A stretch of 64,000 bases of DNA from assembly GCF_041320705.1 (NCBI RefSeq), contig NZ_JBGGTQ010000004.1:372001-436000 (forward strand), written 5' to 3'. Of the stretch, positions 31,790-36,051 are shown piece after piece. The notes beneath the pieces were generated by a model that was given only the letters and a program-made list of their open reading frames with translations, was not told the DNA's origin and did not search any database. This stretch comes from Kineococcus mangrovi. GTDB taxonomy: Bacteria; Actinomycetota; Actinomycetes; Actinomycetales; Kineococcaceae. Numbering within the stretch: position 1 is the first letter of the stretch; each line of letters starts with the position of its first letter. Position numbers and translations under genes: made by a program.

Positions 31790-32698
31790 TCAGCGCGCGT
31801 CGAGCGGGAGCAGGACGTCCTTCACCTCGGGGTCGGTGGCCAGGTACTCCTGCACCGCCGGGTCCTGGAACGTCGCGACGAGGGCCTCGATGTTGTCGGT
31901 GTCCTTCCAGCGCGAGCCGATCGTGAGCTGGCCGGCGAACTCGTCGGGGGCGGTCGGGGCGAAGATCTGCTGCTCGATCGGGACCTTCGCGGCGAGGTAG
32001 TACTCGGTGTACCCGACGGCCGCGTCCAGGTCCGGCAGCGCGCGGGACTGCGCGCCGAAGTCCAGCAGCGTGAACTTCAGGTCCTTGGGGTTCTGGGCGA
32101 TGTCGTCCACCGTCGCCGATCCGACGTCCGTGCCCTCCTTCAGCGTGATGAGACCGGCCTCCTGCAGCACGAACAACCCCTGCGACTCGTTGGCCGGGTC
32201 GGAGTACAACGAGACGGTCCCGCCCTGCGGGATCTGCTCGGGGCTGCCCCACTTCGCCGACCACAGGCCGAAACCCCACCGGAACACCGGGGTCGCGGCC
32301 TCCTCCCGGAAGTCGGGGTTGGCCTGCAGGACCTGGCCGAGCCACAACCGGTGCTGGTAGATGGTGCCGGCCACCTCGCCGTCGCTCACGGCCCGGTTGA
32401 TGGTGTTGGAGTCGGCCAGCGCCTTGAACGCGACGGTGATGCCGTGCTTGGGGGCGACCTCCTTCGCGACGTACTCGATGAGGGCCTGCTCCCGGGCGTT
32501 GCCCTCCGCGGTCGCGACGTACAGGGTCGCCCCCGCCTGCGTGTTCGCGGTGCTCTCCCCGCCCAGGCGGGGCACGACGATCGCGGCGGCGACGCCGAGC
32601 AGGACGACGGCCCCGCCCGCGACGAACGGCCAGCGCCGTCGCGTCCGGAGTTCGAAACCGTGGTCGTCGGTGGTGTGTTCGCGGGTCTCAGCGGACAA
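31790..32698 (-). CDS. metQ: MetQ/NlpA-family methionine-binding protein without lipobox
   Basis: 302-residue substrate-binding component of a D/L-methionine importer (NlpA family; ATVYVATAEGNAREQ-like start and LDFGAQSRALPDLDAAVGYTEYY in part). Residues about 21-45 form one hydrophobic segment behind RTRRRWPF. The protein contains no Cys at all, so it cannot be a lipoprotein; a membrane anchor is the likely solution. The start is TTG 32698, supported by AGGAGA 7 nt upstream; it overlaps the MetI end by 11 bp. Last gene of metNIQ. Confidence 0.88.
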   Translation of the reverse strand: MSAETREHTTDDHGFELRTRRRWPFVAGGAVVLLGVAAAIVVPRLGGESTANTQAGATLYVATAEGNAREQALIEYVAKEVAPKHGITVAFKALADSNTINRAVSDGEVAGTIYQHRLWLGQVLQANPDFREEAATPVFRWGFGLWSAKWGSPEQIPQGGTVSLYSDPANESQGLFVLQEAGLITLKEGTDVGSATVDDIAQNPKDLKFTLLDFGAQSRALPDLDAAVGYTEYYLAAKVPIEQQIFAPTAPDEFAGQLTIGSRWKDTDNIEALVATFQDPAVQEYLATDPEVKDVLLPLDAR

Positions 32699-33419
32699 GG
32701 GTCGTCTCCTGCGTCGGGGTGGGGGTGGGGCGGTTCCTGGTGCGGGGGCGGCGACGGGTGCGCGGATCGGCCGCGCGGGCCAGGGCGTCACCGGTGAGCT
32801 GGACGAGGGCGACCAGCGCGACGAGGACGACGATCGTGGCGATCATCACGGCGTGGTCGAAGCGCTGGTACCCGTAGGTGACCGCGACGTAGCCGATCCC
32901 GCCGGCGCCGATGGTCCCGGCGATCGCGGAGTACTCGATCATCGCGATGGTGTTGATGGTGAACCCGCCGATGATCGAGGGGGTGGCCTCGGCCAGTTGC
33001 ACCGTCGTGATGACCTGCAGCGGTGAGGCTCCCGAGGCCTGGGCGACCGCCACGAGGTTCGGCGGCACCGACCGCAGGGAGTTCTCCACGATGCGGGCGA
33101 AGAACGCGGTGCCCGCCAGGACCATCGGCACGACGGCCGCGCGGATGCCGATGTTCGTGCCGGTGACGAACCGGGTGAACGGGACGAGCGCGGCCATGAG
33201 GACGAGGAACGGCAGCGAGCGACCGGTGCTGACGACCCAGGACAGGACGGTGTGCGCGGGGCGGTTCTCCAGCAGTCCGCCGGGGGCCAGGTTGTGCACG
33301 AGGACGCCGATGGGCACCCCGAGCAGGACGACGATCGTCATGACGATGCCGACCATGAGCAGCGTGTCCAGCAGCGCCGGGGCGATGAGCGCGGGGATCT
33401 GCGCGAGCGGGGTGTTCAC
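32688..33419 (-). CDS. metI: methionine ABC transporter permease
   Basis: 243-residue MetI-type permease with five membrane segments. The EAA-like docking loop (VAVAQASGASPLQVITTVQL in part) sits near residue 130, followed by ATPSIIGGFTINTIAMIEYSA. GTG 33419 overlaps the metN stop (GTGA). The C-terminus has a basic Pro/Thr-rich tail of about 30 residues not seen in enterobacterial MetI. Confidence 0.93.
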   Translation of the reverse strand: MNTPLAQIPALIAPALLDTLLMVGIVMTIVVLLGVPIGVLVHNLAPGGLLENRPAHTVLSWVVSTGRSLPFLVLMAALVPFTRFVTGTNIGIRAAVVPMVLAGTAFFARIVENSLRSVPPNLVAVAQASGASPLQVITTVQLAEATPSIIGGFTINTIAMIEYSAIAGTIGAGGIGYVAVTYGYQRFDHAVMIATIVVLVALVALVQLTGDALARAADPRTRRRPRTRNRPTPTPTQETTLVR

Positions 33420-34420
33420 ACGAGGTCCAGTTCCCGCGGGACGGCGGGGACCTGCGCGTGCAGCCCCCGGCGGTCCAGGGCGGTGGTGAGGGCGGTGGGG
33501 TCGACGCCGCCGGGGACCCCGAGGGTGGCGTGCCCGACGGTGCGGCCGGCGACGGTCCCGACCGAGGCCCCGAGCAGGGCGAGGTCGTGACCCAGTTCGC
33601 GGGACGTCGTGGTCAGCCAGTCGGCGGGCACGTCGTCACCGCGGTAGTGCACCTCCCAGACCGCCAGACCGCCCGCGTCGCCCACGCCGCGGCGGGGCAG
33701 CAGGGCCGCCCCGACGGGCGAGGCCGGGTCCCGCAGCACGTCCAGGAGCGGGGCCGCCTCGACGATCCGTCCGTGCTCCAGGCGGGCGACGGCGTCGGCC
33801 ACGTCGACGACGGTGTCCATCTCGTGGGTGATGAACAGGATGGCCAGCCCGAGGTCGTCGCGCAGTTCCCGCAGCAGGCCGGTGATCGAGGCCGTGGCTT
33901 GCGGGTCCAGCCCCGAGGTGGCCTCGTCCGACAGCAGGACGCCGGGGCGCAGGGCCAGGGCGCGGGCGATGCCGACGCGCTGGCGCTGACCACCGGACAG
34001 CTCGTGCGGGTAGCGGTCGGCGAGCCCGGTCAGCCCGACCCGTTCGAGCAGTTCGGCCACGCGCCGCTGCCGGTCGCGGGCCACGACGCCGAGGTAGCGC
34101 AGCGGGAGCTCGACGTTCTGCGCGGCCGTGCGGCGCGTCTGCAGGCCGTCGGACTGGAAGATCGTCCCGATGCGGCGCCGCGCCTCGCGCAGCCGCCCCG
34201 CACCCAGCCGGGTGAGGTCCTGGCCGCCCACGACGACGGACCCCGACGTCGGGCGGGTCAACAGCGTCACGCACTGCGCGAGCGTGCTCTTGCCCGCGCC
34301 GCTGGGGCCCACGACGGCGGTGATGCTGCCGTCGGGGACGGTGAGGTCGAGGTGGTCCAGGACCGTCGTGGCGTGCGGGGGGTCCCCGTAGGTCTTGGTG
34401 AGGTGGCGCAGTTCGATCAC
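33416..34420 (-). CDS. metN: methionine ABC transporter ATP-binding protein
   Basis: 334-residue ATPase of the methionine importer. Walker A GPSGAGKST (residues about 38-46), signature LSGGQRQR, Walker B VLLSDEATSGLDP, then the C-terminal NIL domain (residues about 255-330) that binds methionine and gives transinhibition. GTG 34420 has AGGAGA 6 nt upstream. First gene of metNIQ, behind a SAM-IV riboswitch. Confidence 0.95.
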   Translation of the reverse strand: MIELRHLTKTYGDPPHATTVLDHLDLTVPDGSITAVVGPSGAGKSTLAQCVTLLTRPTSGSVVVGGQDLTRLGAGRLREARRRIGTIFQSDGLQTRRTAAQNVELPLRYLGVVARDRQRRVAELLERVGLTGLADRYPHELSGGQRQRVGIARALALRPGVLLSDEATSGLDPQATASITGLLRELRDDLGLAILFITHEMDTVVDVADAVARLEHGRIVEAAPLLDVLRDPASPVGAALLPRRGVGDAGGLAVWEVHYRGDDVPADWLTTTSRELGHDLALLGASVGTVAGRTVGHATLGVPGGVDPTALTTALDRRGLHAQVPAVPRELDLV

Positions 34421-34477: not shown

Positions 34478-34544
34478 TCCGGTGGGGAGGGGGAGCAGAG
34501 GGTGCGCTCAGCGGGAGCGGCGACAGTCCTTCGACACGGGAACT

Positions 34545-34657
34545 CCTGGTTCGTCCTTGCCCGCAACTCCTGCGGACCTGGTCCTCACCCGGAGCACCCC
34601 GTGACGAACCAGGGTTGCCGGCCAGCGAGCCGGGGCTTGACGCTGGCGCTCATGACC
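34545..34657 (-). promoter_or_regulatory. SAM-IV riboswitch of metNIQ
   Basis: The minus strand carries, in order, GTCATGAGCGCCAGCG, TCAAGCCCCGGCTCGCTGG, CCGGCAACCC, GGGGTGCTCCGGGTGAGGA and CCAGG: the conserved core of the SAM-IV family, which is found in actinobacteria. The 3' end carries GACGAACCAGG, which is fully complementary to the internal CCTGGTTCGTC loop (34603-34613 with 34545-34555), giving the family pseudoknot. It sits in the leader of metN, so SAM should shut off methionine uptake. Confidence 0.9.
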
Positions 34658-34664
34658 TGCCTCG

Positions 34665-34694
34665 ACTGTGGCAGCCGCCGCAGACCCCCGTCAA
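34665..34694 (-). promoter_or_regulatory. promoter of the SAM-IV leader and metNIQ
   Basis: TTGACG (34694-34689) and CACAGT (34670-34665) with an 18-bp spacer on the minus strand. Predicted initiation falls at about 34658, exactly where the SAM-IV aptamer begins. Confidence 0.55.
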
Positions 34695-34800
34695 GCGGTT
34701 CCGGGACGTCCGGAGTCGGAGAGGGGTCTCCGACATGCGTTGCGGGACAACGTCGTACCGGTCCCGAAAAGAGCCGGGAGCATCGGTCCGCCGGAGGGGG

Positions 34801-34806
34801 TACGCT
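34801..34806 (+). promoter_or_regulatory. -10 element (TACGCT) of the sfnG leader
   Basis: TACGCT lies about 8-10 bp ahead of the SAM-I aptamer on the plus strand, placing initiation at the aptamer's 5' end. Confidence 0.5.
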
Positions 34807-34813
34807 GCGGGGG

Positions 34814-34895
34814 AACCCATCCAGAGCGGCTGAGAGACCTGGCTCGACGACGCCGCAGCAACCCACGGGGGTGCTACCGCCAGGACCGATGGAGG
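34814..34895 (+). promoter_or_regulatory. S-box (SAM-I type) riboswitch of the sfnG-like gene
   Basis: The plus strand has CCATCCAGAG, GGCTGAGAGACCTGG, GCAACCC, GGTGCTACC and GATGGAG, in the order of the S-box aptamer. P1 is CCATC (34817-34821) with GATGG (34888-34892). The ribosome-binding site GGAGGA (34891-34896) shares two bases with the 3' strand of P1, so SAM binding should hide it: translational control of the monooxygenase ATG at 34906. Confidence 0.85.
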
Positions 34896-34905
34896 ACGTT
34901 TCGCG

Positions 34906-36051
34906 ATGCCCCTGCACGAGCCCCTGAAGTTCGCCTACTGGGTCCCCAACGTCTCCGGCGGTCTCGTCGTCTCGACGATCGAGCAGCGCACCAGCCACGA
35001 CCCGGCCTACAACGTCGAGGTGGCCAAGGCCGCCGAACGCGTCGGTTTCGAGTACGCACTGACCCAGGTGCGCTACCTCGCCTCCTACGGCGCCGACGCC
35101 CAGCACGAGTCCACCTCGTTCTCCCTGGCCCTGCTGCTGGCCACCGAGCGGCTCAAGGTGATCGCCGCCGTCCACCCCTTCTTCTGGCACCCCGGTGTGC
35201 TCGCCAAGTTCGCCGCGACCGCGCAGGAACTCACCCAGAACCGCCTCGCGCTGAACATCGTGTCCGGCTGGTTCAAGAACGAGGCGACACAGCTCGGGGT
35301 CACCTGGCACGAGCACGACGACCGCTACAAGCAGTCCGAGGAGTTCATCGAGCTCCTGCGCGGGGTCTGGGGCGAGGACGGCTACAGCCAGTCCGGGGAC
35401 TTCTTCAACGCCTCCGACATCACGTTCCGCCCGCAGCCCGCGGTCACCCCGGAGCTCTTCCAGGGCGGCAACTCCTCCGCCGCGCAGGCCATGGCCGGCC
35501 GCGTCAGCGACTGGTACTTCATGAACGGCAAGTCGATCGCGGGGGCCGCCCAGGGCGTCCGCGAGGTCTCCGCCCTCGCCGCGGAGAACGGGCGCACCGT
35601 CCGGTTCGGGCTCAACGGCTTCGCCCTCGTCCGCGACACCCGCGAGGAGGCCGAGGCCGTCCTGGAGGAGATCATCGCCAAGGCCGACCGCACCAAGGTC
35701 GAGGGCTTCGGCGCCGCCGTCCAGGAGGCGGGCAACTCCACCGGGGACGGCAAGGGCATGTGGGCGGACAGCGAGTTCCGCGACCTCGTGCAGTACAACG
35801 ACGGGTTCCGCACCGGGCTCGTCGGCACCCCCGACGAGGTGGCGCGCCGCGTCCTGGCGTACCGGCTCGTCGGCGTCGACCTGCTGCTCCTCGGGTTCCT
35901 GCACGTCAAGGAGGAGGTCGAGGCGTTCGGCGAGCTCGTCATCCCGCGCGTGCGCGAGCTCGAGGCGCGCCTGGCCGCCGGTGAGGACCTGCAGCTCGGC
36001 GCCGAGCTCGACGAGGCCGTCGTCGCCGCGACCCAGCCCGTCCCGGCCTGA
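34906..36051 (+). CDS. sfnG: FMNH2-dependent dimethyl sulfone monooxygenase SfnG-like (LLM family)
   Basis: 381-residue luciferase-like monooxygenase. LKFAYWVPNVSGGLVVS near the start, QHESTSFSLALL, NIVSGWFKNEATQLG, LFQGGNSSAAQAMAGRVSDWYF and DLVQYNDGFRTGLVGTP (in part) all match my recollection of SfnG, which cleaves dimethyl sulfone to methanesulfinate to scavenge sulfur. The start ATG is set by GGAGGA 9 nt upstream inside the SAM riboswitch. No flavin reductase or other ssu/sfn gene is adjacent. Other LLM sulfonate enzymes (SsuD, MsuD) are the alternatives. Confidence 0.85.
   Translation: MPLHEPLKFAYWVPNVSGGLVVSTIEQRTSHDPAYNVEVAKAAERVGFEYALTQVRYLASYGADAQHESTSFSLALLLATERLKVIAAVHPFFWHPGVLAKFAATAQELTQNRLALNIVSGWFKNEATQLGVTWHEHDDRYKQSEEFIELLRGVWGEDGYSQSGDFFNASDITFRPQPAVTPELFQGGNSSAAQAMAGRVSDWYFMNGKSIAGAAQGVREVSALAAENGRTVRFGLNGFALVRDTREEAEAVLEEIIAKADRTKVEGFGAAVQEAGNSTGDGKGMWADSEFRDLVQYNDGFRTGLVGTPDEVARRVLAYRLVGVDLLLLGFLHVKEEVEAFGELVIPRVRELEARLAAGEDLQLGAELDEAVVAATQPVPA

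Follow-up and report, generated by a model that had tools for sequence, protein, structure and literature searches.

The window, by which is meant the whole 64-kb stretch of DNA analysed, contains exactly two matches when scanned in full with cmscan at the Rfam gathering thresholds: SAM-IV (RF00634) and SAM, the SAM-I class (RF00162). Both cover the full length of their models and face outward with 156 bp between them, inside a 485-bp intergenic gap that runs from the start of a metN-like gene (34420) to that of sfnG (34906). The genes, aptamers and putative promoters are arranged as follows.

31790-32791, minus strand: metQ/NlpA-family substrate-binding protein, start codon uncertain (TIGR00363, 81.5 bits, below cutoff)
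32688-33419, minus strand: metI-like permease (best match NF008049, 170.8 bits, below cutoff)
33416-34420, minus strand: metN-like ABC ATPase (best NCBIfam match TIGR02314, 240.7 bits, below cutoff)
34548-34657, minus strand: SAM-IV aptamer (RF00634, 93.3 bits, cutoff 38, E 1.3e-15), 5' of the metNIQ-like genes
34665-34694, minus strand: probable SAM-IV promoter, with -35 TTGACG (34694-34689), an 18-bp spacer and -10 CACAGT (34670-34665)
34801-34806, plus strand: probable -10 TACGCT of the sfnG promoter, from aligned regions
34814-34895, plus strand: SAM-I-type aptamer without P4, 82 nt (RF00162, 50.8 bits, cutoff 44.4, E 1e-8)
34906-36051, plus strand: sfnG, dimethylsulfone monooxygenase, 381 aa (TIGR04021, 591.8 bits)

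SfnG lies well above the TIGR04021 equivalog cutoff (382.95 bits), and its nearest named relatives among the matches listed are those of Kineococcus vitellinus (89% identity), K. indalonis (88%) and K. siccus (86%). The best NCBIfam models for the minus-strand trio are MetN, MetI and MetQ/NlpA, with every score under the curated cutoff. A first-pass annotation of this DNA had described two SAM riboswitch classes, expected to share one ligand, between divergent sulfur-acquisition genes; cmscan and the gene models bear this out, the two matches in the window being of different classes, with the qualification that the SAM-I match before sfnG is an aptamer lacking P4. The further claim that the classes are structurally distinct stands insofar as they form separate Rfam families, but both belong to one clan, CL00012, and are not unrelated folds. 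Over the whole genome, 8 matches to SAM-I and 4 to SAM-IV pass the cutoff, and the SAM-I/IV model (RF01725) gives none at E <= 10.

Across five aligned Kineococcus regions the spacer has diverged, while the two aptamers, the letters of the -10 and -35 elements and a short open reading frame (ORF) behind the SAM-IV aptamer are conserved. The sfnG -10 reads TACGCT in four regions and TACAGT in one, and by eye the SAM-IV promoter letters are TTGACG and CAnnGT in 5/5. A palindrome, CGTTG-N5-CAACG, lies between the two promoters (34738-34752) and recurs by eye at the aligned place in all five regions with at most one mismatch. It might serve as a protein operator; such a pattern is not rare in itself (4 matches with at most one mismatch vs 1.97 expected).

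The aptamer upstream of sfnG

The plus-strand RNA can be divided into these parts.

34817-34821, plus strand: P1 5' strand CCATC, pairing with 34888-34892 and present in the minimum-energy fold
34826-34856, plus strand: P2, made up of P2a GCGGC/GCCGC (34826-34830/34852-34856) and P2b GAG/CTC (34834-34836/34843-34845)
34838-34842, plus strand: PK-1 5' strand CCTGG, pairing with CCAGG at 34880-34884 (5 bp)
34858-34874, plus strand: P3 with the SAM-pocket motif GCAACC...GGTGC
34875-34887, plus strand: P3-to-P1 linker of 13 nt, TACCGCCAGGACC, in the usual place of the SAM-I P4
34888-34892, plus strand: P1 3' strand GATGG, whose final GG opens the sfnG Shine-Dalgarno (SD) sequence
34891-34895, plus strand: sfnG SD GGAGG, 10 nt ahead of the ATG at 34906

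SAM-I is told apart from SAM-IV by its P4 hairpin, a P2 kink-turn, a particular U and the lack of a second pseudoknot (PMC7270179, partial text). The RNA passes the SAM-I gathering score and has the pocket motif, the P1-P2-P3 core, PK-1 and a P2 kink-turn, with G.A and A.G positions between P2a and P2b. The P4 hairpin is missing: the linker contains the PK-1 strand CCAGG and no hairpin. The minimum-energy fold of the sfnG leader contains P1, P2 and P3 and leaves the linker with a 2-bp pairing only. The leader is not unusually stable (z = +1.70; 193/200 shuffles fold at least as well). An upstream repeat, CATCGGTCC (34781-34789), is complementary to GGACCGATG at the 3' end of the aptamer; this is taken as chance, because the repeat lies 5' of the probable -10 and is missing from the four orthologous regions.

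A covariance model, R1, was built from 31 P4-less sequences, among them the window copy (locus L008), which it scores at 95.8 bits. The covariation set comprises 94 aligned P4-less matches (90 distinct) picked by R1, a model that favours P4-less RNAs by construction, so these sequences do not give the share of SAM-I copies without P4. Over the 90 distinct sequences 99.2% of cells are paired, and both sides change in 13/22 pairs. Cells changed on both sides number 115, against 14.7 in shuffles (0/500 shuffles reach the observed value), and pairing falls to 26.5-50.6% once partners are slid. The alignment was fitted on P1-P3 and PK-1 was left out of the aligning model; PK-1 nevertheless covaries in 4/5 pairs with 99.3% of its cells paired, as in CCTGG/CCAGG, CTTGG/CCAAG, TCTGG/CCAGA, ACTAG/CTAGT and CGTGG/CCACG. 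The P3-P1 linker measures 11-14 nt in all 94 R1-selected matches. Pocket positions, which we take to be the bases contacting SAM, are invariant in 31/31 P4-less sequences and in 92-94 of the 94. At the level of sequence, the kink-turn positions G, A / G, A are kept in 92, 94, 94 and 94 of 94, and next to them most copies have C or T facing a C; for SAM-I, a change from G-A to C-C at this position has been reported (PMC2258182).

Does this RNA have the second pseudoknot of SAM-IV? P3 loops are 3-5 nt when folded in 73/86 distinct P4-less hairpins, and P3 is more complementary than expected to the 60 nt that follow (p < 0.05) in 1/86, by a weak test that detects just 3/15 SAM-IV controls. The P4-less RNA thus likely lacks PK-2. 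Judged from its sequence, the plus-strand RNA departs from the standard SAM-I: pocket, P2 kink-turn and PK-1 are kept, with no P4 and no visible P5 or PK-2.

Proposed control of the two leaders

Ribosome-site control through P1 is a known mode of SAM-I riboswitches. The proposal that the sfnG ribosome site is masked agrees with the layout here, in that the SD begins inside the P1 3' strand, and the distance from P1 to the sfnG start is 13 nt. Of 75 distinct P4-less copies, 62 have an SD-like stretch of purines that starts at the G of GATG in the 3' strand of P1. SAM would enter the conserved pocket of this SAM-I-core aptamer, with the 5-bp PK-1 and kinked P2 keeping a compact fold in the absence of P4, and the stabilized P1 would close over the sfnG ribosome site; since the first two G's of the SD are the last bases of P1, 30S loading at sfnG would be blocked. 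Such direct occlusion would make a separate expression platform unnecessary, and one 5' G of the ribosome-binding site may suffice for it (PMC10907184, partial text). The direct-occlusion riboswitches (SAM-II/V, SAM-III, SAM-SAH and some preQ1) also hold ribosome-site bases inside the aptamer, but they are H-type pseudoknots or other folds, whereas here the core is that of SAM-I. In one further locus, L286 (G604), a P4-less aptamer precedes a hairpin that, with its run of T's, looks like a terminator, so ribosome-site occlusion need not apply to every P4-less copy.

The minus-strand aptamer is a regular SAM-IV, with P1, P2a/b, P3 and P5 present and no P4. Two more features belong to its leader.

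34548-34555, minus strand: PK-2 3' strand GACGAACC, 8 bp with GGTTCGTC of the P3 loop (34603-34610)
34508-34537, minus strand: upstream ORF (uORF) GTG..TGA, encoding VSKDCRRSR, with SD AGGAG at 34543-34547

The PK-2 pairing GGTTCGTC/GACGAACC was found by reading, and the genome's other SAM-IV copies have different letters there. The idea that this aptamer drives metNIQ fares less simply than that of sfnG masking: the SAM-IV assignment is firm at 93.3 bits, but the first ribosome site behind the aptamer serves a uORF of 8-9 codons and not metN. AGGAG directly 3' of the aptamer end, followed by such an ORF, is common to 5/5 orthologous regions, the equivalents in the other four genomes being VSKACPRSR, VPKACRRSR, VTKACRRSR and VSHQTCRR. 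SAM-IV would most likely govern translation of this Cys-Arg-containing uORF, which would in turn govern metNIQ.

In the ligand-free fold of the SAM-IV leader taken alone, the uORF SD and start are paired with P3/J3-1. This pairing would mask the SD when SAM is absent and release it when SAM is present, a control of opposite sign. SAM-IV would then be an ON switch for the uORF, whose translation would repress metNIQ. This is a doubtful reading, consistent with a minimum-energy fold that pairs SD GGAG and the GTG start with CUCC/CACGGG of P3-J3/1, strands that serve P3 and PK-1 in the aptamer, and with conservation of the uORF in 5/5; it is weakened by the fact that, by eye, only the GGAG/CUCC part is retained in all five orthologs, and that the CUCC strand is fixed by the aptamer anyway.

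Each putative promoter appears to initiate transcription at the 5' end of its aptamer. Taken together, the 485-bp region is probably a divergent pair of SAM-repressed leaders that would shut two sulfur-scavenging operons when SAM is plentiful, assuming that both RNAs bind SAM and that control runs in this direction, an assumption made above all for SAM-IV.

Divergent pairing of SAM-I and SAM-IV

Streptomyces lividans was already known as one actinobacterium with both SAM and SAM-IV riboswitches (PMC8079986, partial text). In the window's own genome 2/4 SAM-IV copies stand in a divergent pair with SAM-I, the second pair sitting between metF-metE-like genes and a cysteine desulfurase-like gene. 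The 12 genomes of the window's family hold 90 SAM-I and 46 SAM-IV matches. The arrangement had looked unusual, but it is no isolated case: 15 divergent I/IV pairs, with gaps of 65-169 bp, occur in 7/12 family genomes, against 0.011 expected at random placement under a null that ignores both sulfur-gene clustering and common descent. Reading covered the sfnG/metN pair of 5 genomes; beside the pair in the other four Kineococcus regions stand metN homologues 82-92% identical to that of the window. Further Kineococcus partners include a peptide-type binding protein opposite a luciferase-like monooxygenase, and an FAD-linked oxidase opposite a riboflavin-kinase-domain protein. Outside the family, SAM-IV precedes a class-V aminotransferase and a P4-less SAM-I a 2OG-oxygenase-like gene in G042; in G355 SAM-IV precedes a luciferase-like monooxygenase and a P4-less SAM-I a nitrate/sulfonate-type ABC ATPase.

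Carried over to relatives, the covariance-model comparison holds in part. I/IV pairs recur, but the named Kineococcus sfnG loci L169-L171 have a SAM-I-type RNA with neither SAM-IV (by cmscan) nor metN in the 1.1-2.6 kb upstream, and same-class pairs exist in G006, G057 and G363. The IV/IV pairs lie at G006 C31:54637-55046 and G057 C16:1956-2291; the I/I pair, P4-less, is at G363 C30:25479-25780, between metN-like and flavin reductase-like genes. Divergent I/IV pairing is recurrent, neither unique nor universal.

Does the pairing itself have a function? There is about an even chance that the two leaders are independent neighbours brought together by sulfur-gene clustering, the divergent pairing being functionless. 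Most family matches lie outside I/IV pairs (75/90 SAM-I, 31/46 SAM-IV), and the same-class pairs and the SAM-I-only sfnG loci L169-L171 point the same way; against this, pairs are found at several locus types with gaps of 65-169 bp and also in two other families (G042, G355). A different idea, that mixed classes were chosen to avoid a long inverted repeat, was hinted at by the counts within 250 bp in the 12 family genomes (15 I/IV, 1 IV/IV, 0 I/I). It is unsupported, given the P4-less I/I pair of G363, the IV/IV pair of G057 and the shared descent of the pairs. A division of labour by class, with SAM-I for scavenging and SAM-IV for methionine genes, was likewise rejected, since SAM-I stands before metF-metE-like and metY-like genes and SAM-IV before cysteine desulfurase-like and sfnB-like genes.

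No description of divergent SAM-I/SAM-IV pairs was found in the literature searched, which did not extend to the class-founding papers; a survey of contiguous riboswitches published in 2025 uses neither "divergent" nor "opposite strand" in its available part (PMC12452182).

The P4-less form across Actinomycetota

All SAM-I copies read within the family are P4-less (8/8 in the window's own genome and 27/27 loci in other family genomes), a reading that covers 35/90 SAM-I matches. A survey of 148 genomes of the class found mostly the usual P4-bearing SAM-I. It gave 119 matches by count, 111 of them outside the own genome; 84 were chosen for reading, short ones deliberately, and 78 parsed, the six others being 4 empty extractions and 2 aberrant copies. 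Linkers are 22-55 nt in 70/78, a few canonical lengths being too high because the pattern matched a GGCGC within P3, and 12-13 nt in 6 P4-less copies (G013, G036, G042, G066, G076, G127). Two linkers of 15 nt (G051, G085) are a pattern artefact, and both copies carry P4 by eye.

Over 394 genomes of the class, R1 finds 37 matches of at least 65 bits in 21 genomes and 10 families. Reading one copy from each of these genomes except the own gave 20/20 P4-less, while 9/9 copies read at <=56.4 bits within the class carry P4. Over 296 genomes of the phylum at E <= 1e-12, R1 matches fall in 18 genomes; the 15 genomes outside the class score 60-70 bits, and 15/15 are P4-less on reading. A single score cut between P4-less and P4-bearing copies therefore fits the class (>=65 / <=56.4 bits) but fails outside it. 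Among the best 80 of 591 confirmed stretches around SfnG relatives, R1 gives 18 matches of at least 72 bits and one degenerate match of 39 bits; only 9/18 reach the RF00162 cutoff and the other 9 are missed, a blind spot of the Rfam SAM model for P4-less copies near sfnG relatives. The P4-less type is patchy yet spread through the phylum Actinomycetota. No description of it was found in the literature searched, and as the search lacked the class-founding papers an earlier description is possible.

Several variants were seen along the way. Arthrobacter-type P4-less copies (L215:1576-1734, L218:1640-1788, L238:1601-1739, L229:1586-1724, L217:1607-1734 and L090, of G013) have the loop CTGGATC, one lost P2b pair and a long P3 insert with a conserved GGTGACGTGAGACGACCATTCCCACG-like sequence; the five named copies and that of G013 fall under the Rfam SAM cutoff. 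P4-less L278 (G465) has pocket letters CACCAACC...GGTGG instead of GCAACC...GGTGC and might sense another ligand. In a metY-like copy, L019:6927-7033 (G000 C10), a second GATGG-like end lies 14 nt 3', GATGGGAGAGGACCACCGATGGAGC, owing to which the Rfam match extends beyond the first P1. The SAM-I copies of L087, L088 and L089 (G143, G111, G122) either look truncated in P3 or contain a very long insert there, with spans of 62-242 nt.

P4-less copies precede nitrate/sulfonate-type ABC ATPases, metN-like genes, sfnG and methylenetetrahydrofolate reductase-like genes, as well as genes for sulfite/nitrite reductase-, rhodanese- and flavin reductase-domain proteins and peptide-type binding proteins, several targets being assigned as the first ORF of at least 150 aa, up to ~320 nt from the aptamer. 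Some neighbours are not sulfur genes, among them those for a GNAT acetyltransferase (L154) and for an acyl-CoA ligase (L249). Short ORFs often lie 3' of P4-less copies, for example MRSPLFLTTRRHVDLLRQSSALPPRR, which matches the leader-peptide model NF042934 (30.9 bits, cutoff 27); among seven peptides scanned, one exceeded that cutoff, four had only sub-cutoff matches to leader models and two had none. Such LTRRxHVDLxR..CR-like ORFs resemble the actinobacterial Cys leader peptides (NF042934, Ms4527A, Ms5788A) and trail some P4-less copies, but in these loci the short ORF stands behind a SAM aptamer, and sfnG of the window has none.

How does the form relate to the known classes? With SAM-I it shares P1, kinked P2, P3, PK-1, the GCAACC...GGUGC pocket and an AUC/GAU P1, and it differs in lacking P4 and in a PK-1 of mostly 5 bp rather than 3-4 bp. 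SAM-IV has no P4 and a PK-1 strand of 5 nt (PMC6890682, partial text), so the P4-less RNA is SAM-IV-like at the junction and SAM-I-like in P2 and P1; SAM-IV however has P5, PK-2 and a four-nucleotide turn, whereas in the P4-less RNA the kink-turn is of the SAM-I type and neither P5 nor PK-2 is evident. SAM-I/IV (RF01725), a class with PK-2, shares the binding core but is described as having P4 and neither PK-1 nor the P2 internal loop (PMC6890682, PMC2864571, partial texts), the reverse of the P4-less RNA as regards PK-1 and P4.

It could be argued that this is an ordinary SAM-I in which P4 has only become shorter, perhaps on many occasions, and that nothing about it is structurally distinct: the window copy exceeds the Rfam SAM cutoff, its P1, P2 kink-turn and pocket are all SAM-I-like, and the Rfam alignment simply omits the P4 columns. 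This appears improbable, for the linker lengths of the class survey are bimodal and not graded (12-13 nt vs at least 22), and the form is found in 10 families within the class as well as in 15 genomes outside it. PK-1 is at least 5 bp in 85/94 P4-less matches (4 bp in 7, 3 bp in 2) against 3-4 bp in 65/67 canonical rows (4 bp in 41, 3 bp in 24, 5 bp in 1, none in 1), of which at least one (G030) is mis-parsed. G127 and G066 each have both types.

More speculative is the suggestion, tentative at best, that the P4-less RNA represents a fourth SAM-clan architecture, with PK-1 only and without P4, P5 or PK-2, across Actinomycetota and an evolutionary bridge from SAM-I to SAM-IV, in which P4 would have been lost and PK-1 lengthened before P5 and PK-2 were gained. 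If so, a genome that has both this form and SAM-IV, such as the present one, would preserve the two ends of the path together. A recurring form with no P4, a longer PK-1 and no evident P5 or PK-2 offers a concrete, testable intermediate and may show how little periphery the SAM core needs. For the bacteria themselves, the genes behind these leaders suggest that these actinobacteria adjust their scavenging of dimethylsulfone and sulfonates to SAM.
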